Part shown: positions 920-12,561 of the stretch, piece by piece
How positions within the stretch are numbered: the stretch's first letter is position 1
Layout of the letters: every line of letters starts with the position of its first letter
NCBI GenBank assembly: GCA_018061265.1
Contig: JAGOUM010000015.1
Coordinates: 1-38,532, forward strand
DNA length: 38,532 nucleotides
Source: Rhodoferax sp.
GTDB lineage: Bacteria > Pseudomonadota > Gammaproteobacteria > Burkholderiales > Burkholderiaceae_C
Reading direction: 5' to 3'
Program-made: the position numbers and the translations under genes
Notes under the pieces: generated by a model
Seen by the model: the letters and a program-made list of their open reading frames with translations, nothing else
What the model was told of the DNA's origin: nothing
The model's database searches: none

Positions 920-994
920 TGGTACCCGCAACAGGAATTGAACCTGTGCCTGAAGCTTAGAAGGCTCCTGTTCTCTCCACTGAACTATGCGGGC
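920..994 (-). tRNA. tRNA-Arg(UCU)
   Basis: Complete cloverleaf, with acceptor GCCCGCA paired to TGCGGGT (G-U first pair). The anticodon loop CTTCTAA gives UCU. The discriminator is A and CCA is encoded. It is the last tRNA of the array, adjacent to the HNH gene. Confidence 0.92.
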
Positions 995-1001
995 AGTGTT
1001 G

Positions 1002-1074
1002 ATCCCCGGTCATGGGATCGAACCGGCATCAAGGTCGCAGGAGGACCTTGTTCTATCCATTGAACTACAGCGGC
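1002..1074 (-). tRNA. tRNA-Arg(CCU)-like, degenerate 3' half
   Basis: The 5' half is good: D arm GTTC/GAAC and anticodon stem AGGTC/GACCT with loop CTCCTGC, giving CCU. The 3' half does not fit: T stem GCCGG faces CCATG with only two pairs, the acceptor GCCGCTG has no matching 3' strand, and there is no encoded CCA. Every other tRNA here encodes CCA. It is probably a decayed or rearranged tRNA gene, so it may not be functional. Confidence 0.6.
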
Positions 1075-1084
1075 ATAGAGAAAA

Positions 1085-1161
1085 TGGCGACCCGTGGAGG
1101 ATTTGAACCCCCGACGGCCTCCTAGACAGGGAGGTGCTCTACCAGGCTGAGCTAACGGGCC
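1085..1161 (-). tRNA. tRNA-Asp(GUC)
   Basis: Standard cloverleaf, with acceptor GGCCCGT/ACGGGTC. Anticodon stem CCTCC/GGAGG carries loop CTGTCTA. The discriminator is G, as expected for Asp, and CCA is encoded. Confidence 0.95.
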
Positions 1162-1180
1162 AAAAACGGTGGTTTGTATA

Positions 1181-1257
1181 TGGAGTCCCCGGCCAGGCTC
1201 AAACTGGCGACCTCAACCTTCGCAGGGTTGCGCTCTATTCATCTGAGCTACAGGGAC
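1181..1257 (-). tRNA. tRNA-Arg(GCG), unusual anticodon
   Basis: Complete cloverleaf: acceptor GTCCCTG/CGGGGAC, anticodon stem CAACC/GGTTG with loop CTGCGAA, T stem GCCAG/CTGGC, encoded CCA. The anticodon reads GCG. Most bacteria read CGU/CGC with an inosine-modified ACG tRNA, and that type is also present in this array (at 2685-2762). A GCG-arginine tRNA is therefore uncommon and probably foreign. Confidence 0.88.
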
Positions 1258-1321
1258 GCGATGGACTTCAATATGCAAAACGCATTCCGAAGCTGTTGGC
1301 TTTGGAATCCACTTTGCCTGG

Positions 1322-1392
1322 TGGTGGGCGTTCCGAGGTTCGAACTCGGCACCATCCGGTTAAAAGCCAGGTACCAAATGAGCTAAACGCCC
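1322..1392 (-). tRNA. tRNA-Lys(UUU)-like with deleted D-stem strand
   Basis: The acceptor (GGGCGTT/AACGCCC), T arm (CCGAG/CTCGG), anticodon loop CTTTTAA and encoded CCA are all intact. The gene is only 71 bases because the 3' strand of the D stem (GAGC plus one base, found in normal relatives after GGTA) is missing. The D arm cannot form normally. It is probably a pseudo-tRNA or a very unusual one. Its 5' part overlaps the end of the small ORF at 1360-1518. Confidence 0.6.
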
Positions 1393-1518
1393 TTGCAATA
1401 CTTTTTCCTGGCGGCGCAAAGCCTTGTTCGACTTTGCATGTGTGCCGGCCTTCTTGAACAGGGCCACCGCGACGAAGGGGTTTCGCGGGGCCGAGCGCTT
1501 TCGTGCTTTCGGTTTCAT
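1360..1518 (-). CDS. Small RNP-motif protein (52 aa) overlapping tRNA-Lys
   Basis: ATG at 1518 is preceded by a good Shine-Dalgarno (AGGAGA, about 6 bases upstream). The product is 52 residues, basic, with the core PRNPFVAVALFKKAGTHAK followed by a KALRRQEK block. The same core pattern (RNP, A, AG-x-H, K, RR-x-EK) occurs in the 58-residue protein at 8081-8257, so the two are related. The last nine or so codons run into the tRNA-Lys-like gene, and the TAA lies in its anticodon loop, so the native C-terminus may have been altered by a rearrangement there. Function is unknown. A highly basic peptide in a tRNA array next to RNA-repair genes could bind RNA, but that is inference. Confidence 0.6.
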   Translation of the reverse strand: MKPKARKRSAPRNPFVAVALFKKAGTHAKSNKALRRQEKVLQGRLAHLVPGF

Positions 1519-1811
1519 GGGTTCTCCTGAGGTGGTGTGTAAATCTTGAGCTTCGGCCGCACAACTCCAATGAGTCGGCGCCGATACTCAATAGCCTGTC
1601 TGCCACAGGCCTGTCGGGTTGCGTCCGATGCCCCCCTCGCGGCTATCTTGTCTGAGGGGCCGCGTCTATGGCCATGTGCTCAGCTTCCACGCCTCCTATC
1701 GGTGGCGACTGCAGATGCTGCACGGCATAGTTCCTGGCTTTGTGGTCTACGGGGCCAGGTCGACCCGCACATGCGACGCCATGACCGAACGGCGTTGCAA
1801 TTCTTGAAATT
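1393..1811. other. Gap in tRNA array
   Basis: This 419-base gap splits the array. The small ORF ending at 1360 occupies its first part (to 1518). In 1519-1811 I find no tRNA, no convincing gene and no clear terminator. Confidence 0.5.
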
Positions 1812-1897
1812 TGGTGGCCAAGGCCGGACTTGAACCGGCACGCCTCAATGGCAACAGATTCTGAATCTGCCGTGTCTGCCAATTCCACCACTCGGGC
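1812..1897 (-). tRNA. tRNA-Leu(CAG)
   Basis: Class II tRNA with a long variable arm. Anticodon stem GCAGA/TCTGT carries loop TTCAGAA. T stem GCCGG/CCGGC and CCA are present. The acceptor has one C-C mismatch at pair 2:71, a small sign of drift. Confidence 0.88.
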
Positions 1898-1904
1898 TTT
1901 CAAC

Positions 1905-1991
1905 TGGCGGAAGGTATCAGGATCGAACTGATGGACCCTGTTTAGAGCCACGGCTTAGCAAGCCGCTGCATTACCACTCTGCCAACCTTCC
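1905..1991 (-). tRNA. tRNA-Ser(GCU)
   Basis: Class II tRNA with a long variable arm. Acceptor GGAAGGT/ACCTTCC, discriminator G and encoded CCA. Anticodon loop TTGCTAA gives GCU. Confidence 0.93.
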
Positions 1992-1997
1992 TTTCTC

Positions 1998-2072
1998 TGG
2001 TGGTTGCAGGTGGGTTCGAGCCACCGCACGCTGCCTTATGAGGGCAGTGCTCTACCGCTGAGCTATACAACC
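1998..2072 (-). tRNA. tRNA-Met(CAU), probably elongator
   Basis: Acceptor GGTTGTA/TGCAACC with a normal 1:72 pair, so it is not an initiator. Anticodon stem CTGCC/GGCAG carries loop CTCATAA; discriminator A; CCA encoded. A tRNA-Ile with lysidine-modified CAU cannot be excluded from sequence alone. Confidence 0.85.
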
Positions 2073-2077
2073 GAATC

Positions 2078-2154
2078 TGGTGCCCAAGGAGATGTTTCGA
2101 ACGCTCGACCGACCGCTTACAAGGCGGTTGCTCTTCCAACTGAGCTACAGGGGC
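2078..2154 (-). tRNA. tRNA-Thr(UGU), degenerate T arm and acceptor
   Basis: The D arm and anticodon stem ACCGC/GCGGT with loop CTTGTAA are good and CCA is encoded. The acceptor GCCCCTG against CTTGGGC has two mismatches, and the T stem GAGCG cannot pair fully with its 3' partner, with one extra base in the arm. As with the Arg(CCU) copy, the decay is in the 3' half. Function is doubtful. Confidence 0.65.
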
Positions 2155-2160
2155 AAACAA

Positions 2161-2235
2161 TGGTGTCGGGGGAGAGTTTTGAAATCTCGACCTCGCGCTT
2201 ATCGGGCGCGTGCTCTTCCTCTGAGCTACCTCGAC
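2161..2235 (-). tRNA. tRNA-Ile(GAU)
   Basis: Anticodon stem CGCGC/GCGCG with loop CCGATAA gives GAU. Acceptor GTCGAGG/CCCCGAC has one A-C mismatch. The T stem GAGA/TCTC has a mismatched fifth pair and an atypical loop lacking the usual TTCGA. CCA is encoded. Confidence 0.82.
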
Positions 2236-2255
2236 GGGAGATGGTTGAAAGGGGT

Positions 2256-2331
2256 TGGGGTGACTGATGGGATTCGAACCCACGCATACCGCGGTCACAG
2301 CGCGGGGCCTTCACCACTTGGCTACAGCCAC
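2256..2331 (-). tRNA. tRNA-His(GUG)
   Basis: Acceptor GTGGCTG/CAGTCAC with discriminator C and a G at position -1 (complement of base 2332), both hallmarks of tRNA-His. Anticodon stem CCGCG/CGCGG carries loop CTGTGAC. CCA is encoded. Confidence 0.94.
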
Positions 2332-2432
2332 CACTAAATTGGTATCTCGCAACGATGCGTCTTCCTCGCGCAACACCTTGTGTCGCTCGCACTGATGACC
2401 AGTCGGCGTCCCGGCTGGTCCGTTGCTCGAAT

Positions 2433-2516
2433 TGGTGGACGCTGCTGGATTCGAACCAGCGTGCTGTTAAGACCTGATTTACAGTCAGGCACCTTCAACC
2501 ACTCGGTCAAACGTCC
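2433..2516 (-). tRNA. tRNA-Tyr(GUA)
   Basis: Class II tRNA with a long variable arm. Acceptor GGACGTT/AGCGTCC. Anticodon stem CCTGA/TCAGG carries loop CTGTAAA. CCA is encoded. Confidence 0.94.
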
Positions 2517-2521
2517 AAAAT

Positions 2522-2596
2522 TGGTCCGTGATGGGTGAATCGAACACCCGACGACCTGCTCCCAAAGCAGGCGGCATACCACTTGCCGAATCACGG
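2522..2596 (-). tRNA. tRNA-Pro(UGG)
   Basis: Acceptor CCGTGAT/ATCACGG with the C1:G72 pair expected for Pro. D stem GGCA/TGCC, anticodon stem CCTGC/GCAGG with loop TTTGGGA, T stem GGGTG/CACCC, discriminator A, CCA encoded. Confidence 0.92.
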
Positions 2597-2602
2597 AAAA
2601 TA

Positions 2603-2678
2603 TGGCTCCCCGAGCTGGGATCGAACCAGCGACAACCGCATTAACAGTGCGGCGCTCTACCAACTGAGCTATCAGGGA
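2603..2678 (-). tRNA. tRNA-Asn(GUU)
   Basis: Acceptor TCCCTGA/TCGGGGA, anticodon stem CCGCA/TGCGG with loop CTGTTAA, discriminator G, CCA encoded. All arms pair. Confidence 0.95.
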
Positions 2679-2684
2679 AAAATG

Positions 2685-2762
2685 TGGAGCGCCCAGCACG
2701 ATTCGAACGTGCGACCCCATGCTTCGTAGGCATGTGCTCTGGTCCAGCTGAGCTATGGGCGC
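2685..2762 (-). tRNA. tRNA-Arg(ACG)
   Basis: Acceptor GCGCCCA/TGGGCGC, anticodon stem CATGC/GCATG with loop CTACGAA, CCA encoded. It would be modified to ICG and read CGU, CGC and CGA, overlapping the role of the Arg(GCG) copy at 1181. Confidence 0.94.
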
Positions 2763-2778
2763 GAAAACTGACAATGAT

Positions 2779-2870
2779 TGGCGGAAAGTTGAGGAGTCGA
2801 ACCCCATCCCCGTTAGGAGAACCCGGTTTTCAAGACCGGTCGCAGGACCAACCCCGCTGCATAACTTTCC
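2779..2870 (-). tRNA. tRNA-Ser(UGA)
   Basis: Class II tRNA with a long variable arm. Acceptor GGAAAGT/ACTTTCC, anticodon stem CCGGT/ACCGG with loop CTTGAAA, discriminator G, CCA encoded. Confidence 0.94.
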
Positions 2871-2887
2871 AAGAACTGGTGAATCAA

Positions 2888-2961
2888 TGGAATGCGCGAC
2901 TGGAATCGAACCAGCCTATTTCGGGTTGCAGCCGAACGCCCGGCCACTTGGCTACGCGCAT
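2888..2961 (-). tRNA. tRNA-Cys(GCA)
   Basis: Acceptor ATGCGCG/CGCGCAT with discriminator U, a Cys identity element. Anticodon stem TTCGG/CCGAA carries loop CTGCAAC. CCA is encoded. Confidence 0.93.
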
Positions 2962-2984
2962 GTAGATCACTTTGATCAAGGAAC

Positions 2985-3058
2985 TGGAGCGGGCCATCGG
3001 AATCGAACCGATATACACAGCTTGGAAGGCTGGCGCCTAACCACTCGGCCAGGCCCGC
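2985..3058 (-). tRNA. tRNA-Gly(UCC)
   Basis: Acceptor GCGGGCC/GGCCCGC, anticodon loop CTTCCAA, discriminator U as usual for Gly, CCA encoded. One C-T mismatch sits at the outer anticodon-stem pair. Confidence 0.92.
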
Positions 3059-3064
3059 AAAAAG

Positions 3065-3146
3065 TGGTCCCCCAGGCGAGACTCGAACTCGCAAAAGCCC
3101 GGCTTCTAAAGCCGGTAGGTGTACCAATTTCCATTGCCACCGGGGG
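3065..3146 (-). tRNA. tRNA-Leu(UAG)
   Basis: Class II tRNA. Acceptor CCCCCGG/CTGGGGG, anticodon stem CCGGC/GCCGG with loop TTTAGAA, CCA encoded. The D arm is not the common Leu form. Confidence 0.9.
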
Positions 3147-3158
3147 AATATCTAAATC

Positions 3159-3235
3159 TGGCAGAGGGTGGACGATTCGAACGTCCGAATGTCGCGGTCA
3201 AAGCGCGATGCCGTAGGCCACTTGGCTAACCCCCC
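3159..3235 (-). tRNA. tRNA-Gln(UUG)
   Basis: Acceptor GGGGGGT/ACCCTCT with two G-U pairs, anticodon stem TCGCG/CGCGA with loop CTTTGAC, discriminator G, CCA encoded. Confidence 0.92.
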
Positions 3236-3241
3236 ATGTGA

Positions 3242-3317
3242 TGGCATCCCGAGAAGGCTTCGAACCTTCAACCTCTGGTTTTGGAGACCAGCGCTCTGCC
3301 AATTGAGCTATCGAGAT
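3242..3317 (-). tRNA. tRNA-Trp(CCA)
   Basis: Acceptor ATCTCGA/TCGGGAT, anticodon stem CTGGT/ACCAG with loop CTCCAAA, discriminator G (a Trp identity element), CCA encoded. Confidence 0.94.
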
Positions 3318-3325
3318 GCTGAAAA

Positions 3326-3400
3326 TGGCGTCGCATAGGGGATTCGAACCCCTCTGGGCAGGATGAAAGCCTGCAGACCTCACCAGAAGTCCAATGCGAC
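3326..3400 (-). tRNA. tRNA-Glu(UUC)
   Basis: Acceptor GTCGCAT/ATGCGAC, anticodon stem GCAGG/CCTGC with loop CTTTCAT, discriminator G, CCA encoded. Confidence 0.93.
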
Positions 3401-3514
3401 GAAAAATGGGTGACCGCCGAAGGCAAGGCTACGTGAGCCTCACCGCCGGGGCCGTCTGTGCAAGCTCCCGTTTGCCATTGTGGTACGGGGAACCATGGCG
3501 TGCTCGCTGACAGA

Positions 3515-3592
3515 TGGTTGCAGGGGCCAGATTTGAACTGGCGATCTCAAGGTTATGAGCCTTGCGAGTTAACCGGGCTTCTCTACCCTGCG
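3515..3592 (-). tRNA. Initiator tRNA-fMet(CAU)
   Basis: The 5' C faces A72 (CGCAGGG against CCCTGCA), the unpaired C1-A72 that marks bacterial initiators. Anticodon stem CAAGG/CCTTG carries loop CTCATAA. The T loop TTCAAAT is typical of fMet; CCA is encoded. Two of the three G-C pairs usual at the base of the anticodon stem are kept (the third is A-U). Confidence 0.92.
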
Positions 3593-3596
3593 AATG

Positions 3597-3672
3597 TGGT
3601 GGATCGGGAAGGGATTGAACCTTCGACGCCTGCGCTTTCAACGCAGCGCTCTACCAACTGAGCTACCAATCC
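3597..3672 (-). tRNA. tRNA-Phe(GAA)
   Basis: Acceptor GGATTGG/CCGATCC, anticodon stem CTGCG/CGCAG with loop TTGAAAG, discriminator A, CCA encoded. It is the first (5'-most) gene of the leftward array. Confidence 0.94.
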
Positions 3673-5153: not shown

Positions 5154-6959
5154 TCACTTCACCAAAAACACTTCCCCCCGCGCCAGAAACGGCAATCGAC
5201 GACCCTGGGGCAAAAGATAGGCGTGGTCCATTGAGGTGTTGATCTGGTTTTCGCAATAGCCGTCGGTGATGATGAGTAAGGGCCCATGTTTCGGGAAATC
5301 TCCTCGATCGGCCAGTTCCCGCAAGCGATCAAGACCCGGCTGCAGAACGGTACCCCCTCTGCCGCGCAAACTGAAACGGTCGAGCAAATTCTCTGGCTCA
5401 ACCCAGCCGCTGTCGTACGCCTGTGCATCGCAGCAGATCAAGCGCACCGCCATCACATCGCGTGCCATGGCATAGCTTGCAATCGCCCCCAGTGCTTTGC
5501 CCAATAGCTGCGTTGCCATGGAACCCGAGGTGTCCAATACAACCCCAAACACACGGCTTCTACGTTCCTCTTCAGTGGGCTTGACGATGGACGGCCGCGC
5601 AATGTCTGGCGTGGATGCTTGGCGACGTGAGGGCCGCGCATAGCTGCGCCGCAGCTCCGGCGGTGGAAAGCGTTCATCAAACCAATCGGCCAGTTTGACA
5701 TCCCAGGGAATCGGCGGCTGGCTGAGGCTGCGTATCTCTTCTACCAGTCCAGCCGGAAGAAGGCCGCGCGCGGTGCAGTTTGAATACCGGTCCAACCCTT
5801 GCGCCAATGCACGGCGGCAGTAGCTTTCGGCATCGGTGAACAATTGCCCGTCGTCGTCGCCCAGCAGGTCTTGTGCGCCGACACCGCGCAAGGTGGCAAG
5901 TTTGCGGGCACGGCGGATATCCTGCGCCAAAGCGTCGTACACCTCTTCCGACGAGCGTCCGGTGAACTGCGCATCGTGCAGCAAGCCCATGTTGGGGGCG
6001 GAACCGACCGCCATCTCGATCAACCAGCCATTGATCACGAAGTCACAAGCAATATTCCACAGAAGCGGGTCGCGGCCCCGTCGACGCGATGAATGATTGA
6101 GGCCCGCATGCAGCAGTTCGTGCGCAAAGACAAACAGACATTCGTCCTCGGATAAGCCAGCGCTTGGGTTCATCCAGATCCGCCTTGCGCCGACGTCGAT
6201 GGCGGCCACCCGTATGTCGTACTGCTGGCACAGGCGCACATCTTCTTCGATGTCGAAACTGGCTGCCAATGCGCCGAGCAAAGGGAAGTGGTCGATCAAA
6301 CGCCGCTTGGCTCGCAATGCCCTGGTCAACGGTTTCAGTGCGCCGCTGGTGCCAGACGTTCCCGATGCAAGTTGTAGCGCCTGACCCACGCCTCGGGCGA
6401 TGCCGTCGGCCAGCAGATCACGCCATTGGGGTTGGCGACTCAATGACCGCACTGGTTCATCAAAATTGCAGAAGAAGGCCCTATCGCCTGTCAGGGTCTT
6501 CAGCCAATCCATCCATTGTGGTTCACAGCCATCCACACAAAATTTGCGCAACAAGGCTTCCGCGCCGCCCAACGGCAAATCTGGCATGTCGCATTGCAAG
6601 TCCTGCGGAAGTTGCCCCAGTTTGAGTTCATCGCAAAATCTGTTTGCAATCAGGCAACTGGCAGCTTCCCACAACTCGTGTGGCTCCTGTCTACGAACCA
6701 GGCCAAATCCCAGGCTAATGAGGGCCATCGCCATGACTCGGGTCCAAGCTGAGGCGTCGGCGCGGCGCTGACCGTGAAGCCAAATCGTTCCGACGGGCGA
6801 GACCGCCAGCCAGCCTTTTTGGGATACAAACCGCTGGTTCGCATCGACCACGAAGGACACTGACTCCATCAAGGGTGCGAGTACCGGATGCGCTTTGAGA
6901 CACTGCACGGCAGCCGTGCGCGCCTCGGCAGCGACGCCAGATTGAGGATGTCTACTCAC
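5154..6959 (-). CDS. Putative metallopeptidase / VWA-domain protein
   Basis: This 601-residue protein combines a zinc-metallopeptidase-like domain with an intact HELLH (residues 280-284) and a C-terminal von Willebrand A domain with the metal-ion site DTSGS (476-480) and ITDG. It matches the DUF2201-type VWA family, normally encoded next to a MoxR-like AAA ATPase. Such AAA/VWA pairs act as chaperone-like remodelling machines; whether the peptidase site is active is unknown. GTG at 6959 overlaps the TGA of the upstream ATPase (GTGA), showing translational coupling. Residues 1-240 are not recognised. Location near rtcB and the tRNA array suggests a role with RNA or ribonucleoprotein targets (inference). 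Confidence 0.85.
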   Translation of the reverse strand: MSRHPQSGVAAEARTAAVQCLKAHPVLAPLMESVSFVVDANQRFVSQKGWLAVSPVGTIWLHGQRRADASAWTRVMAMALISLGFGLVRRQEPHELWEAASCLIANRFCDELKLGQLPQDLQCDMPDLPLGGAEALLRKFCVDGCEPQWMDWLKTLTGDRAFFCNFDEPVRSLSRQPQWRDLLADGIARGVGQALQLASGTSGTSGALKPLTRALRAKRRLIDHFPLLGALAASFDIEEDVRLCQQYDIRVAAIDVGARRIWMNPSAGLSEDECLFVFAHELLHAGLNHSSRRRGRDPLLWNIACDFVINGWLIEMAVGSAPNMGLLHDAQFTGRSSEEVYDALAQDIRRARKLATLRGVGAQDLLGDDDGQLFTDAESYCRRALAQGLDRYSNCTARGLLPAGLVEEIRSLSQPPIPWDVKLADWFDERFPPPELRRSYARPSRRQASTPDIARPSIVKPTEEERRSRVFGVVLDTSGSMATQLLGKALGAIASYAMARDVMAVRLICCDAQAYDSGWVEPENLLDRFSLRGRGGTVLQPGLDRLRELADRGDFPKHGPLLIITDGYCENQINTSMDHAYLLPQGRRLPFLARGEVFLVK

Positions 6960-8029
6960 GCGCTCACCCGGCTGACGCGTCCGGCCAGACGCGGAAGATC
7001 GCGTGCCACCTCGACCAGAAACCAGGCTGGCAAGCGTTGACCCGCCTCGTCTTCGCTCATGACGGACTGGGCAATCTCTACGCTGATGCGGGCCAGATCA
7101 CGCAGCATATCCTTGGCGCGAATTCCGAGCGCCGTGTGCACTGCGCGTACCGACGCCTCATCGGCTGGCAGTTCCTTGCGCAGGTGTGCACGGAAGGACT
7201 GCGCCAGAAAATACAGAACATCACGATCCTCAGGTCCCGTCGGCCAATAGGCATCGCCTTTGATGATGGCATGCAGGGTGTGCTTCTGATGGATTTGCTT
7301 GAGATAGGCCTTGAAGTGGGCGGCGTGAGGTGGCGACAGCAGACCAAATGCGAGCGCTTCGATCATTTCATCGCTGATATCGCTGCCGAAAGACTGCAAG
7401 GACTCAGACAACATGTGCCAACTGCGCGGTGTTGAAAATGTTTCTTCATGCTTGGGCGGTTCACTCCACAGATGGTCGGGACGCAGTTGAATGTATTCAA
7501 TCACCCAGGGGTGGATGCTGCCTTCGTTGATCGCCCAGTCCAGCCACTGCCGGTGATCGGTGCGCAGATGGATGTGCACCAAACGGTTGATGAGGGCTGA
7601 GGGCATGGGTTTGACAATGGCGGCATCTTTGGCCCGGTTGCCGGCACCGATCACAATGGTTCCCGGTGGCAATTGATATTCGCCCACCCGTTGTTCCAGG
7701 ATCAGGGAGTAAAACGCCTTTTGTATTTCATGTGACGAGGCATTGAGCTCGTCCAAAAAAAGCACGAACGGCTGTTTGCGAACAATATTGGCCGGAGGAT
7801 AGAAGCGGGAGCACTCGCCGTCTATTTTTGGAATGCCCAGCAAATCTTCCGGGGCCAGTTGACTTCCGAGCAGGGAGACACATTCCATGCCCACGGCGTC
7901 GGCAAAACGTCGCACCAGCGCGCTTTTGCCGATACCTGGCGGACCCCACATGAAGACGGGACGAACGACGGCGACATTGAGCAGGAAATCAATGGCCTGG
8001 GTTTGGTTGAGTTGAATCGCGGATTGCAT
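6956..8029 (-). CDS. MoxR-family AAA+ ATPase
   Basis: This 357-residue ATPase has Walker A GPPGIGKS (29-36), Walker B VLFLDE (89-94), sensor-type GAGNRAKD and an arginine-rich sensor region (ALINRLVHIHL). These place it in the MoxR class of AAA+ proteins, which partner VWA-domain proteins and drive assembly or remodelling of complexes. It overlaps the metallopeptidase/VWA gene by 4 bases and follows the 58-residue protein and rtcB in the same direction, giving the order rtcB, small ORF, AAA, VWA. No strong Shine-Dalgarno is visible at ATG 8029. Confidence 0.88.
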   Translation of the reverse strand: MQSAIQLNQTQAIDFLLNVAVVRPVFMWGPPGIGKSALVRRFADAVGMECVSLLGSQLAPEDLLGIPKIDGECSRFYPPANIVRKQPFVLFLDELNASSHEIQKAFYSLILEQRVGEYQLPPGTIVIGAGNRAKDAAIVKPMPSALINRLVHIHLRTDHRQWLDWAINEGSIHPWVIEYIQLRPDHLWSEPPKHEETFSTPRSWHMLSESLQSFGSDISDEMIEALAFGLLSPPHAAHFKAYLKQIHQKHTLHAIIKGDAYWPTGPEDRDVLYFLAQSFRAHLRKELPADEASVRAVHTALGIRAKDMLRDLARISVEIAQSVMSEDEAGQRLPAWFLVEVARDLPRLAGRVSRVSA

Positions 8030-8080: not shown

Positions 8081-8257
8081 TTACTCATCCTGAGCACCCC
8101 TGGTGGTGCGTCCTGAAACCAGGTTGCGCAACACCTGCTTTTCTTTTCGACGTACTTGGCGCGCTGACTTTTCATCCTTGTGCGCGCCCGCGTGACGAGT
8201 TCTGGCCGCCAAAAAAAGCGGGTTGCGTGGCTTGGGTGGTTTGATCGTGATCTTCAT
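8081..8257 (-). CDS. Small RNP-motif protein (58 aa) between rtcB and AAA gene
   Basis: The ORF starts at ATG 8257, three bases after the rtcB stop, with GAAGGGAT as a possible ribosome site. It encodes 58 residues, strongly basic, with the core KPRNPLFLAARTRHAGAH, then a KSARQVRRKEKQ block. The pattern RNP, A, AG-x-H, K, R-RR-x-EK is shared with the 52-residue product at 1360-1518. The tight junction implies co-translation with rtcB. It was missed by simple length-based ORF calling. I do not know a function. The small size, charge and placement suggest an RNA- or RtcB-binding accessory protein (inference). Confidence 0.72.
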   Translation of the reverse strand: MKITIKPPKPRNPLFLAARTRHAGAHKDEKSARQVRRKEKQVLRNLVSGRTTRGAQDE

Positions 8258-8260
8258 GGC

Positions 8261-9469
8261 CTATCCCTTCACGCAAATGACTTGGCGCAGCGTATGCACG
8301 ACCTCGACCAGATCGGCCTGGTGTGCCATGACTTCATCAATGTCTTTGTAGGCGGCGGGAATTTCATCGATGACGCCGCCATCTTTTCGGCACTCAATGC
8401 CACTGGTCTGCTGTGCCAGATCGAAGCGGTCAAAGCGTCGTTTGGCCTCGCTTCGGCTCATGCGCCGGCCCGCACCGTGTGAGCAGGAGCAGAACGATTC
8501 TGGATTTCCCTTGCCGCGCACGATGTAGCTTTTGGCACCCATGCTGCCGGGAATGATGCCAAGTTCACCCTCACGCGCCGAGATGGCACCCTTGCGAGTG
8601 ACGTAGAGCAGCTCATTGCCATGGGTTTCACGTGCCACATAGTTGTGATGGCAATTGATCGCCTCGCCATCGAGTTTAAAGGGGGGCAGGTGCTGCGCCA
8701 GTACTTCGAGCGTGCGGCGCATCATTTCACGCCGATTGATCAGCGCGTAGTCCTGCGCCCATTCCACGGCTTCAACGTAGTCGTCGAACCACTGTGATCC
8801 TTCGCTGAAGTAGGACAAGTCCTTGTCTGGCAAATTCATGTGGTGGCGCGCCATATCCTTTTTTGCCGCCGAAATGAAGTAGCGCCCGATCACGTTGCCT
8901 ACGCCGCGTGAGCCAGAGTGCAGCATGACCCAAACGCGCTGATCTTCATCGAGACAAATCTCCAGAAAATGGTTGCCGCCACCCAGCGTGCCGATCTGGC
9001 AGATCCAGGTTTGCGCAAATTTGCGTTGCATTTTCATGATGCCTTGGTGCTTCGCAACAATCCGGTCCAGACGGTCATTGAGCGGGCGCCCCACACGGCC
9101 ATGAGCCGAGCCACGCACCTTGTCCCATTCGTGCTGTTCAAAGCCAACGGGAATCGAGGCTTCGATGGCGCTTCGCAAGCGGGCCAGGTTATCGGGCAAT
9201 TGGCTCGTCGTGAGCGTGGTGCGAACCGCGTTCATGCCGCAACCAATGTCGACGCCAACGGCAGCCGGAATGATGGCTGATCGTGTGGGAATCACACTGC
9301 CGACCGTGGCACCGATGCCAGCATGAACGTCCGGCATCGCAGCCACATGGGGATGGACGATGGACAAGTTGGCGATATGCAGGAGCTGTGCAATCGCTTC
9401 GTGCTCAATATCGTCGGTAAAAATGTGCACGGGAACCAGTCCCTTGTGCAAGGTTTGCTTGATGGGCAT
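8261..9469 (-). CDS. rtcB: RtcB-type RNA ligase
   Basis: RtcB joins RNA 2',3'-cyclic phosphate (or 3'-phosphate) ends to 5'-OH ends using GTP and Mn2+, repairing tRNAs cut by toxins. Residues follow the family: GVDIGCGMN with metal-binding C77, GTLGGGNHFLE (160-170), HSGSRGVG (184-191), and the SHGAGR segment with the guanylated histidine H331. At 402 residues from ATG 9469 it is the usual length. An ATG at 9565 gives a longer frame running into the upstream terminator and is unlikely. The next genes (small ORF, AAA, VWA) are tightly packed. RtcA cyclase, RtcR regulator and Ro/TROVE partners common in other bacteria are absent here. A structured leader precedes it. Confidence 0.95.
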   Translation of the reverse strand: MPIKQTLHKGLVPVHIFTDDIEHEAIAQLLHIANLSIVHPHVAAMPDVHAGIGATVGSVIPTRSAIIPAAVGVDIGCGMNAVRTTLTTSQLPDNLARLRSAIEASIPVGFEQHEWDKVRGSAHGRVGRPLNDRLDRIVAKHQGIMKMQRKFAQTWICQIGTLGGGNHFLEICLDEDQRVWVMLHSGSRGVGNVIGRYFISAAKKDMARHHMNLPDKDLSYFSEGSQWFDDYVEAVEWAQDYALINRREMMRRTLEVLAQHLPPFKLDGEAINCHHNYVARETHGNELLYVTRKGAISAREGELGIIPGSMGAKSYIVRGKGNPESFCSCSHGAGRRMSRSEAKRRFDRFDLAQQTSGIECRKDGGVIDEIPAAYKDIDEVMAHQADLVEVVHTLRQVICVKG

Positions 9470-9535
9470 AACAATTTCTCTTCGGTTATTTGTTATGCCG
9501 GGGTGTTTGCGCAGGCCGATCCATGTCTGGCCCGC

Positions 9536-9572
9536 AAAAGCAAAAACCCCGGCGAGTTTCCTCACCGGGGTT
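9536..9572 (-). terminator. Terminator between leader RNA and rtcB
   Basis: Minus-strand stem CCCCGG/CCGGGG (9547-9552 with 9565-9570) followed by a T-rich run. It lies about 67 bases upstream of the rtcB start, so it either ends a separate small RNA or acts as an attenuator for rtcB. Confidence 0.8.
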
Positions 9573-9722
9573 CAATATGTGGAACGACCGGCTCGGGTCG
9601 GCAACAGGTGCCGCGACCCCGAGCAGTCATGCGCGGGGCTATGTAGTTGTCAAATTACAGATAGCCGTACGTGGCATGGTCGTTCCTTTCTGTGGCAAAA
9701 ATAGGTTGATCGAAATTGGTGA
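9540..9722 (-). ncRNA. Structured RNA upstream of rtcB (small RNA or attenuator)
   Basis: From a predicted start near 9722 to the terminator, the RNA folds into a closed multi-branch form. P1 is a perfect 9-bp stem (9581-9589 with 9678-9686). Next to it is a 4-bp helix (9629-9632 with 9674-9677). P3 is a long bulged hairpin (9591-9624) with a seven-pair outer stem. P2 is GGCTAT/ATAGCC (9637-9642 with 9661-9666) carrying a further hairpin. All strands fit without overlap. It matches no RNA family I recognise; YrlA-type Y RNA, GOLLD and ROOL do not fit its size or shape. It may be an independent RNA or a leader controlling rtcB. Confidence 0.62.
9639..9677 (-). CDS. Possible 12-residue leader peptide
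   Basis: ATG at 9677 follows AAAGGAA at ideal distance and encodes MPRTAICNLTTT then TAG. The ribosome site lies inside the P1 stem, so folding of the RNA would hide it. Three Thr codons precede the stop and a terminator follows before rtcB, as in attenuation leaders. It may also be chance, as short ORFs with good ribosome sites occur. Confidence 0.35.
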   Translation of the reverse strand: MPRTAICNLTTT

Positions 9723-9728
9723 GGCGTG

Positions 9729-9757
9729 ATTGTGCTTTGGCTCTAAGGTCGTGTCAA
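9729..9757 (-). promoter_or_regulatory. Sigma-70 promoter for rtcB leader RNA
   Basis: On the minus strand a perfect -35 TTGACA (complement of 9752-9757) is followed after exactly 17 bases by CACAAT (complement of 9729-9734), which matches four of six -10 positions. Transcription would start near 9722, upstream of the structured RNA. Confidence 0.6.
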
Positions 9758-10112
9758 AAAAAATGCCAAACCTTGTGCAAATCTTGTTGCATTTTTGCGT
9801 CATCTGATTCGTGATTTATTCATTTGTTCGCGCCGATGATGAATTGATCTCGGCAACTGAATTCTGCTCACCCACTCATGTAGCTGGCGACCGGCTTGGC
9901 ACAACGCTTTCAGCCTCTGCGGCCCAAAGCCGTCAAAATCTCAGACTGAGTCAAAAGATTGACGACTGCAATTCAGCTCTCTCATTGGAGATCAGCTCGA
10001 AGCGCAACAATGAACCAGGATTTGGCATTTGGGCGTGGTTAAAAGAAAGCGGATTTCGGGACACATTGGCGCGACCATCCCTCACCAAATTGTTCAGTGT
10101 TGATGACACGCC
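9758..10112. other. Intergenic, no convincing gene
   Basis: About 350 bases between the rtcB promoter and the CoaD-HD stop. A plus-strand frame (9811-10116) is open, but it lacks a ribosome site and resembles no protein I know, so I do not call it. Confidence 0.5.
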
Positions 10113-11246
10113 CTAATCGTTCAACTCATTCTGAAGATTCTGTAGCGCCTTTTCCTCGTAAAGCTCCTTGAAGTACGGATTTTGAAACAGGTTTCCTGAT
10201 TGTGCGGCGGCAATGAAGTGTTGCAGCACGTGACGGCGTGCGCACCGGTACACGGACTCTTCCACCCACGAGTATTCCTGTCTGACCGAAGCGCGATAGC
10301 TGTTGTAGATGGCCTCGGATTGACCGAGGATGGCCAGATCGGCGCCAAGCATCACGTCGGCCAGGGGAGGCATCTCAGAGCGGGGCAACGCGTGTTCGGT
10401 GCAGCGAATCAGGTTGGCAACATGCTCTCGGTTGGAGACCGTTTGACCCGAAGAGAGCCACAGTTGGGCGCTGGCCTCTTCGTTTGATGTAGCGGCTTTG
10501 GGCGCGTTATAAATAGCATCGTGAAACCAGAACGCGGCCTTCAGTGCGCGAATGGATTCGGCATCGGCATCCGTATTGGACGCCCAAACGGCGAGTTCAC
10601 TAAGACCATGTACCAAGTGATCTAGATTGTGGTACGCGCGCTGCGGTGCGGCATAGCATTGCTTGTTTGTAAGGGCGGTGAACCAATTGTCGGCATGTGC
10701 AACGCCGGCGCCATCAAGTGAACCGTAGGACCAGAGTTCCTCCCATTCTTTGCGCAGCCAGACCAGTACCCATGCGTTATAGGCCGCTTTGGGAACAAAC
10801 TTTTGCATGCTCCAGTGCCAGCCGACCGGACCTTGTAACCCGCGTACAAACGTCGAACTGACCGAGCCCAGGTCTCGCGGTGGCATGACGAACAGGGTTT
10901 TTGCACCTTCGACTACATCCACATTGGCTTGTTGGAGCAGGTTTTCGTAGTCAAAGTCGGACGTGTTTCGAATGCCACGAATCATGTAGTCGATACCGTG
11001 GCGTTTGGCTGCACGGGCCGTGTAGTCGCCGCGCACCAGCACCACGCTGACATTGCTCCAGCCGCGCTCGGCCAATGCTTCTTCAACAATGATCTTGCGT
11101 TGACTTGCGGAAAACATTGGCTTCTTGAACGGATTTTCGGAGATGAAGACCATCACTTCATCTGCAAGCGCACGTGCTTCACCAATAACCCAGAGGTGAC
11201 CGTTGGTGATGGGATCAAGTGTCCCGGAGAAGGCAATTTTTTTCAT
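10113..11246 (-). CDS. CoaD-like pantetheine-phosphate adenylyltransferase fused to HD-type hydrolase domain
   Basis: Residues 1-160 match CoaD, which adenylates 4'-phosphopantetheine to dephospho-CoA. Visible motifs are FSGTLDPITNGH (nucleotidyl transferase TxGH at 14-17), IRGIRNTSDFDYE and SSTFVR (130-135). Residues 195-377 look like the COG4339-type HD phosphohydrolases, with YHNLDH (205-210) and FHDAIYN (241-247). CoaD is normally about 160 residues, so this is a fusion. It lies one base after coaE, making a two-step dephospho-CoA/CoA module. The HD part may remove or recycle a nucleotide or phosphate product. That role is inferred; no HD substrate is known here. Confidence 0.85.
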   Translation of the reverse strand: MKKIAFSGTLDPITNGHLWVIGEARALADEVMVFISENPFKKPMFSASQRKIIVEEALAERGWSNVSVVLVRGDYTARAAKRHGIDYMIRGIRNTSDFDYENLLQQANVDVVEGAKTLFVMPPRDLGSVSSTFVRGLQGPVGWHWSMQKFVPKAAYNAWVLVWLRKEWEELWSYGSLDGAGVAHADNWFTALTNKQCYAAPQRAYHNLDHLVHGLSELAVWASNTDADAESIRALKAAFWFHDAIYNAPKAATSNEEASAQLWLSSGQTVSNREHVANLIRCTEHALPRSEMPPLADVMLGADLAILGQSEAIYNSYRASVRQEYSWVEESVYRCARRHVLQHFIAAAQSGNLFQNPYFKELYEEKALQNLQNELND

Positions 11247-11862: not shown

Positions 11863-11870
11863 AGAAGTGT

Positions 11871-11896
11871 CAATATTGGTTGATTGACCAATATTG
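11871..11896. promoter_or_regulatory. TetR operator 1 (coaE side)
   Basis: Perfect 10-bp arms CAATATTGGT and ACCAATATTG around a 6-base centre. The core TTGGTT-N4-GACCAA matches operator 2. It begins 8 bases upstream of the coaE start, so a bound protein would block coaE. Confidence 0.75.
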
Positions 11897-11927
11897 ACAC
11901 AAGTTTGACGCGGTATCAAGTAAAATT

Positions 11928-11942
11928 TGGTTAATCAACCAA
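11928..11942. promoter_or_regulatory. TetR operator 2 (tetR side)
   Basis: Core TTGGTT-AATC-AACCAA (from 11927), nearly the same as operator 1. It lies about 14 bases before the tetR ATG and near a possible promoter (TTGACG at 11905-11910). Two matching palindromes in one divergent intergenic region indicate autoregulation and shared control of coaE. Confidence 0.72.
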
Positions 11943-11955
11943 TATTTATCGAATC

Positions 11956-12561
11956 ATGGCCAACCGCCCAAACACCGAGGAGCGTCGCGCACAGATCGTC
12001 AATGGATTGCTGCTGGCCATCGCCGAGCATGGCTATGCGAAGGCAACCATTCAAATAATCGCTCGAAAAGCCGGCATTGCGCCGGGGTTGGTGCATTACC
12101 ACTTCACCGCCAAGGCGGAAATATTGGTTGAACTGGTGAAAACCTTAGCCGAGATATTCCGCGCACGTTACACCACGCTTGCGGCATCCGCCGTGTCCCC
12201 GGAGGACCACCTTTTTGCCTACGTCAATGCGCGTCTTGCCAAGGGCGTGGGTGAAAACCCTGCTGTGGTTGGAGCTTGGGTCATGATTGGATCAGAGGCA
12301 GTGCGCATGCCTGAGGTCCAAATGATTTACCAACAAGCAATTGGCGCAGAATTGGCGCTGCTCAAGGAATTATTGGCAGCCTACCTTACCTCAATCGGCA
12401 AGCCATTGAACAGCGTAGACCATCTGGCAGCCTCCATCATTTCTTTGATGGAGGGCGCATTTCAAATCGCCGTTGGTGCACCCGATGTGATGCCAACCGG
12501 CTATGCAGCGACAACAACCATTCAATTAATCAAGCGATATGTTGGCGCAGAGCCGAACTAG
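11956..12561 (+). CDS. TetR-family transcriptional regulator
   Basis: This 201-residue protein has the TetR N-terminal DNA-binding domain (about 8-55): an AEHGYAKATIQIIARKAGIA helix-turn-helix followed by PGLVHYHFTAKAEIL. The ligand-binding C-terminal half is not specific enough to name an effector. It is divergent from coaE, with two near-identical palindromes between them, and is followed by an alpha/beta hydrolase facing it. Repression of itself and of coaE-coaD is the likely role. No clear Shine-Dalgarno precedes ATG 11956. A CoA-related or hydrolase-product ligand is possible but unproven. Confidence 0.88.
   Translation: MANRPNTEERRAQIVNGLLLAIAEHGYAKATIQIIARKAGIAPGLVHYHFTAKAEILVELVKTLAEIFRARYTTLAASAVSPEDHLFAYVNARLAKGVGENPAVVGAWVMIGSEAVRMPEVQMIYQQAIGAELALLKELLAAYLTSIGKPLNSVDHLAASIISLMEGAFQIAVGAPDVMPTGYAATTTIQLIKRYVGAEPN

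Follow-up and report, generated by a model that had tools for sequence, protein, structure and literature searches.

A conserved leader peptide and terminator upstream of rtcB as a probable ribosome-mediated attenuator in a proteobacterial clade

RESULTS

A compact element precedes rtcB

In the window, as we term the whole 38,532-nucleotide stretch of DNA analyzed, rtcB lies on the minus strand behind a compact element composed of a promoter, a short leader ORF, several predicted RNA stems, and an intrinsic terminator (Table 1). We set the rtcB start at ATG 9469 by alignment to the start of its relatives, in preference to the mechanical GTG at 9565. The promoter (TTGACA at 9757 to 9752, a 17-nt spacer, and CACAAT at 9734 to 9729) matches the consensus at 10 of 12 positions. 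The 162-nt RNA from 9697 to 9536 has a minimum free energy of -72.2 kcal/mol (z = -5.4), a stability equaled by none of 200 shuffled sequences, and its predicted fold contains a 9-bp closing stem, P1 (GGAACGACC/GGTCGTTCC), and two inner arms, with the ends of the RNA close together. A preliminary description of this DNA had listed the TTGACA/CACAAT promoter, a perfect 9-bp closing stem with two internal arms, a rho-independent terminator before rtcB, and, in the closing stem, the ribosome site of a possible 12-residue leader peptide. All of these parts were recovered on the minus strand: the AAAGGA site overlaps the stem, the leader ORF reads MPRTAICNLTTT, and the 13 pairs of the terminator (9573 to 9544) are followed by TTGCTTTTGC.

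TABLE 1 Features of the rtcB element and the genes downstream of it. Group 1 denotes the leaders of the window and of loci L036 to L052 (18 sequences).
Feature	Position	Strand	Basis or remark
Sigma-70-type promoter, TTGACA-17-CACAAT	9729..9757	-	Consensus scan; comparable site close to the start of the leader in 32 of 42 leader-bearing loci
AAAGGA ribosome site of leader ORF	9684..9689	-	Partly within closing stem P1; present in 18 of 18 group 1 leaders
P1 (closing stem) 5' strand, GGAACGACC	9678..9686	-	Fold and alignment; overlaps ribosome site
Leader ORF, 12 codons, MPRTAICNLTTT + TAG	9639..9677	-	ATG at 9677; start and stop codons identical in all 18 group 1 leaders, which have 11 to 13 codons
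P2 5' strand, GGCTAT, inside leader codons	9661..9666	-	Consensus pairing with stop-codon region
P2 3' strand, ATAGCC, spanning stop codon	9637..9642	-	Alignment and consensus fold
P3 arm, GCTCGGG:CCCGAGC pairing	9591..9624	-	Fold and alignment
P1 3' strand, GGTCGTTCC	9581..9589	-	Alternative predicted partner, terminator 5' arm
Predicted antiterminator, CCGGTCGTTC (9591-9582):GAACCCCGG (9573-9565)	9565..9591	-	Prediction from folding only
Intrinsic terminator, GAACCCCGGTGAG-GAAA-CTCGCCGGGGTTT and U-rich tail	9544..9573	-	13 pairs, then TTGCTTTTGC; conserved in alignment
rtcB, RNA ligase, 402 aa	8261..9469	-	Pfam RtcB, 434.9 bits
Small basic protein, 58 aa, between rtcB and moxR	8081..8257	-	ORF read
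MoxR-like AAA ATPase	6956..8029	-	Follows rtcB also in L041 and L044
DUF2201/VWA-like protein	5154..6959	-	Follows moxR also in L041 and L044

Consensus scans of a 1.2-kb region found one promoter-like site, with 0.9 expected, and two terminator-like sites, with 1.5 expected. On this measure, neither part stands out from chance; the case for the element lies in its conservation across loci rather than in the scans.

Downstream of rtcB, the MoxR-like and VWA-like genes are probably part of the same operon, with moxR assigned to it because of its spacing. ORFs resembling the 58-aa basic protein were seen by eye after the leader in a related genome (G042) and after rtcB at locus L003. Ten mechanical ORFs immediately following rtcB gave no Pfam match, either to prfH or to any other partner.

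Farther along the minus strand lies an array of 23 tRNAs (920 to 3672) that covers 18 amino acids, with none for Ala or Val by ARAGORN, and an HNH endonuclease gene (286 to 867) lies beyond the array. Array and HNH gene possibly represent a mobile stress or anti-defense island. The first tRNA lies roughly 1.5 kb beyond the VWA gene; since that interval showed no terminator or promoter on the minus strand, read-through from the rtcB operon into the array is conceivable. We set aside the idea that the element controls the array, since no array is found near rtcB in 37 loci (L036 to L072, some with short flanks). In L036 (8073-8624), L038 (8129-8683), and L040 (8122-8685), a homolog of the window's HNH protein (42 to 46% identical) is encoded on the same strand as the leader and rtcB and immediately precedes them. 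In L025 (3578-8436; contig 9 of genome G051), another rtcB lies within an array of 20 ARAGORN tRNA predictions on the same strand.

Among 35 same-genus genomes searched, no rtcB exceeded 59% identity to that of the window, in contrast to the 84 to 89% identity of RtcB at Collimonas, Massilia, and Duganella loci. This difference suggests that the window's rtcB was acquired horizontally.

The leader-terminator architecture recurs upstream of related rtcB genes

From an RtcB alignment scan, we took the best 80 of 569 loci encoding a relative, mostly from beta- and gammaproteobacteria, and scored 79 of them after dropping L098, where the contig begins too near. The architecture was defined as a leader ORF of 7 to 45 codons with a ribosome site, followed by a terminator hairpin of -8 kcal/mol or lower. 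It was found in 47 of these 79 rtcB loci; the 32 negative loci had neither part (13 loci), the leader ORF only (13 loci), or the terminator only (6 loci). Applied to other ORF starts, the same rule picked out 2 of 167 that have 150 nt or more free of long ORFs upstream and, in a looser control that includes many spurious ORFs, 3 of 859 long ORF starts from these loci. Of 42 loci picked for possessing a leader, 32 had a promoter matching at least 9 of 12 positions in the 120 nt that precede the leader start, versus 100 of 2,100 mononucleotide shuffles.

Beyond the window's clade, the architecture is rare: in a phylum-wide sample (72 of 299 genomes matched), it was seen at 2 of 29 further RtcB loci, those with the best scores. 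None of five sampled release-factor-linked RtcB loci (over the TIGR03073 cut-off) has it, and two of them (L147 and L151) have a leader-like ORF by eye. By cut-off, the window's RtcB is itself outside this release-factor-linked family (147.1 versus 271.8 bits for TIGR03073; 180.4 versus 407 bits for PRK09588), to which ArmZ, discussed below, presumably belongs. One rtcB of Acinetobacter baumannii, whose protein is 66% identical to the window's, is preceded by the architecture, with the leader MPTLQGKTQ.

A covariance model built from the 18 group 1 leaders found matches in 22 of 399 genomes of the order (E ≤ 0.001). Only the window (142.6 bits) and G042 (151.5 bits) matched strongly, the other 20 genomes scoring 25 to 38 bits. 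Since distant leaders score weakly with this model, our estimate of breadth rests on the architecture rule. The match in G042 (L143, ~11870-12130, minus strand) is the best of all, yet rtcB is there cut to about its last 11 codons, by eye, and the leader now stands before a small basic ORF and a 353-aa ORF.

Three further loci were inspected and left uncounted. L011 and L012 appear attenuator-like by eye but were not called by the rule, and their putative ribosome site runs up to the start codon; upstream of rtcB in both, TCTCCGGG could pair either with CCGGAGA near the possible start or with the terminator arm CCCGGAGA, and they are possibly an independent attenuator with an uncertain start codon. 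L004 has a leader-like ORF (MTSQGTKPPR) and, by eye, complementary segments 77 nt apart, with no ribosome site by the rule.

The leader frame is kept and the closing stem covaries

Across the 18 group 1 sequences, the invariant positions comprise the ATG, the TAG, the blocks AGCCCCG, GCTCGGGG, and CGAGCCGG, and most of the terminator arms, and AAAGGA precedes every leader start. The codons between the blocks vary, and the ORF has 11, 12, or 13 codons, with internal gaps of exactly three bases; gaps of noncodon sizes occur outside the ORF. With ATG, TAG, and frame kept in 18 of 18 sequences, the ORF appears to be maintained as a translated frame.

A P1-type stem is predicted in all 18 leaders, in a shifted register in L037, L045 to L049, L051, and partly L052. 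The preliminary description had called for a covariation analysis of homologous rtcB upstream regions, and in these 18 closest leaders the closing stem does covary: five of the nine P1 pairs are changed on both sides, and 85% of the P1 cells of the alignment are paired and 15% unpaired. P2 and the terminator each have one two-sided change and P3 has none, P3 and most of P2 being nearly invariant in the group. For the structure as a whole, the covariation score was 0.206, against a shuffled mean of 0.140 and with none of 500 shuffles as high, and it fell to 0.03 to 0.14 when the partners were slid by 1 to 3 columns. This argues for the structure with good but not decisive force, the counts being inflated by the kinship of the sequences.

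Early ribosome positions are predicted to sequester the terminator arm

We folded each leader up to the terminator 3' arm with a 30-nt ribosome footprint placed at every codon, using equilibrium folding that ignores cotranscriptional kinetics. In the window, the terminator 5' arm was mostly free (0.21 paired upstream) if the RNA carried no ribosome or if a ribosome stood at the stop codon. With a ribosome on codons 1 to 5, P1 was blocked and the upstream pairing of the arm was 0.75 to 0.77; the stop-proximal CCCCG segment, the predicted alternative partner of the P3 5' strand upon an early stall, would then pair with CGGGG, and CCGGTCGTTC would pair with GAACCCCGG. The switch is predicted to be thermodynamically feasible throughout group 1: relative to no ribosome, upstream pairing of the arm rose in 18 of 18 leaders with the footprint on codons 1 to 4 and in 17 of 18, L051 being the exception, with the footprint on codon 5. 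The effect extended to codons 7 to 9 in some leaders (L037 to L039 and L045 to L048).

The shift seen with the footprint on codon 3 was lost when the 25 nt preceding the terminator were permuted, as 0 of 40 permutations were as high in 16 of 18 leaders and 2 of 40 were in L037 and L051. When the terminator 5' arm was permuted, 10 or more of 40 permutations were as high in L036 (20 of 40), L037, L049, and L051, and 0 to 7 of 40 were in the other 14 leaders (1 of 40 in the window). Because a permuted arm often gives a similar shift, the predicted switch is partly a matter of C-rich composition. Outside group 1, with the arms set approximately, upstream pairing rose by more than 0.1 in 11 of 31 leaders (29 of the 30 other positives, L094 being left out, plus L003 and L144) and fell in L056, L070, and L074. 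We lean modestly toward the exact pairing swap that the model predicts and hold it less firmly than the attenuator itself because of the arm-permutation and outside-group results.

Leader peptides are diverse and hydrophilic

We assembled by hand a list of 51 leader peptides, some of them from loci that do not pass the rule; its greedy clustering mixes lineages. Thr, Asn, and Gln are frequent in the peptides and hydrophobic residues are scarce: the combined fraction of A, V, L, G, I, W, and C is 0.247, versus 0.422 in ORF starts (0 of 5,000 simulations as low). An enrichment of Asn, Asp, His, and Tyr codons was weak (89 of 5,000 simulations as high), and we do not claim it. No run of one amino acid is shared across the 51 peptides by eye, and codons 2 to 5 vary between lineages. 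Since the peptides are codon diverse and hydrophilic, lack a common run, and differ at codons 2 to 5, the leader would fit a general sensor of early elongation trouble better than an amino acid sensor.

RtcR accompanies other rtcB genes in some relatives

We did not find the activator RtcR (PF06956) in the window's genome, although this absence is unproven because the assembly is 89.5% complete. In 5 of 11 relatives, a strong RtcR match (E ≤ 2.4e-74) lies within ~2 kb of a different type of rtcB, whose protein is 58 to 59% identical to the window's; the match in G023 is borderline. G051 and G042 lack an RtcR match, as do G040, G057, and G058, which carry the other-type rtcB, so that RtcR does not explain all such genes. 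One genome, G048, has two rtcB genes, one (C1:385596) with the leader MTTQKGLTQ and one (C1:1604539) that adjoins RtcR and has a sigma54-like site. None of the 79 loci in the window's set showed the sigma54-like pattern, against 3 of 39 other loci; the pattern is insensitive, since it finds only 2 of 5 rtcB genes next to RtcR.

DISCUSSION

The element is real, conserved, and regulatory, and it is absent from Rfam: with Rfam 15 at gathering scores, nothing matched over the element, all 20 matches in the window being tRNAs (923 to 3672), and no family could be assigned to it at permissive thresholds. The preliminary description recognized no known family, which is true of Rfam 15 at gathering scores; as a kind of regulation, however, the element is not new, with a precedent in PA5471.1-armZ. 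It is most probably ribosome-mediated transcription attenuation, a known kind found in a new place.

We think it highly probable, from the comparative sequence evidence, that the element is an attenuator of this kind that turns the rtcB operon on when translation stalls. RNA polymerase would begin at the sigma-70-type promoter and transcribe the leader. With healthy tRNAs and ribosomes, the 12 codons would be translated fast and the ribosome would depart; P1 would then fold over the ribosome site and leave the terminator 5' arm free, and the terminator would fold and end transcription upstream of rtcB. If the ribosome stalled in the first codons, on a damaged or uncharged tRNA or under a ribosome-targeting drug, it would cover the P1 5' strand, and the released P1 3' strand would pair with the terminator 5' arm, so that no terminator forms. 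Read-through would transcribe rtcB and the genes for the small basic protein, MoxR, and the VWA-like protein, and RNA repair would thereby be induced by the very failure that it mends. Four points of this model are inferred: cells translate the leader, a stalled ribosome triggers the switch, transcription reads through, and the four genes form one operon. A coupling of rtcB to translation by attenuation, one of the readings in the preliminary description, gains comparative support from the architecture, the leader frame, the P1 covariation, and the footprint folding.

The other reading offered there, a stable small RNA or an RtcB substrate circularized through its meeting ends, would explain the compact fold, the nearness of the ends in that fold, and the possession of a promoter and terminator. 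It nevertheless drew no positive evidence from the analysis, and we regard it as very unlikely, for the leader start, stop, and frame are kept while bases vary, codon-sized gaps are specific to the ORF, the same architecture precedes rtcB in relatives, no Rfam small RNA matches at gathering score, and the closing stem covers a ribosome site; what is conserved has the look of a translated leader and a terminator. A terminator that merely ends the leader, with rtcB read from a promoter of its own downstream, or a leader that acts on translation or stability would suit the ribosome site lying under the closing stem and the ~200 extra nt between terminator and rtcB in L050 and L052. Yet a strong, conserved terminator stands between the leader and rtcB, and the sole promoter-like site in a scan of 9000 to 10200 lies before the leader, though such scans miss many promoters; this possibility, too, appears quite unlikely.

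Hardly likely at all, in our estimation, is an amino-acid-specific attenuator with one regulatory codon, as in the his or thr operons. The window peptide does end with three Thr codons, Thr is enriched across leaders, and His_leader (RF00514) gives a weak match (20.6 bits versus a gathering score of 49) to a leader without a His codon. Against these points, no residue is consistently repeated across the 51 peptides by eye, and the codons at which a ribosome would free the switch, codons 1 to 5, are M-P-R-T-A in the window and differ between lineages. On the attenuator reading, damage of any kind to tRNAs or ribosomes could be reported through one signal, the stalled ribosome.

We give about even chances to a wider proposal, namely, that this proteobacterial rtcB clade uses a self-contained RNA sensor in place of RtcR and sigma54, in which a codon-diverse leader would let an early stall on any broken tRNA lead to RNA repair, the ribosome site and terminator would share one anti-strand, and the two rtcB copies of G048 would answer to two sensors.

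RtcR controls rtcB in E. coli and Salmonella, the Salmonella system being induced by damaged tRNAs, as cited in the portions of PMC10272220 available. RtcR with sigma54 thus also switches rtcB on, but it does so as a protein activator at a sigma54-type promoter. The same partial text describes Anabaena TrcR, a regulator of the trn tRNA operon and of rtcB; through it, translation stress is tied to rtcB, to an HNH gene, and to a long tRNA operon (PMC10272220). TrcR is there a DNA-binding repressor, unlike the RNA switch proposed here. The uORF of E. coli topAI-yjhQ, according to excerpts of PMC12121999, senses several classes of ribosome-targeting antibiotics; it precedes genes other than rtcB, and we liken it to the rtcB leader by description alone.

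The literature searched, in which few subscription journals were covered and sources were available in part, yielded no report of a leader-peptide attenuator of rtcB itself. The best parallel would be P. aeruginosa PA5471.1, likened by its described function. According to excerpts of two papers, this leader controls armZ, which encodes an RtcB-like protein (PMC13041342, PMC12057347). When the CCA-adding tRNA nucleotidyltransferase Cca is lost, PA5471.1 mRNA associates more with ribosomes and armZ is expressed more strongly, with an involvement of leader codons 3 and 4, as excerpted from PMC13041342; these codons fall within the codon 1 to 5 region predicted for the rtcB leader. As far as these excerpts go, the two systems have in common a short leader peptide, a terminator (a proposed one for armZ), and a downstream gene of the RtcB superfamily, and the armZ model, in which stalling, including that in a cca mutant, leads to read-through, resembles ours (PMC13041342, PMC12057347). 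They differ in that ArmZ is reported, in the text available, as a MexZ anti-repressor that is RtcB-like and has prfH adjacent (PMC12057347), and in that the window's RtcB falls short of the TIGR03073 cut-off.

A conserved leader-peptide attenuator would be a direct and testable answer to how rtcB is induced without RtcR in this clade, Anabaena TrcR being one other answer for RtcB control in bacteria that lack RtcR. The comparison suggests that RtcB-type proteins are recurrently linked to translation-stress attenuation, the armZ attenuator then being one instance of this link.
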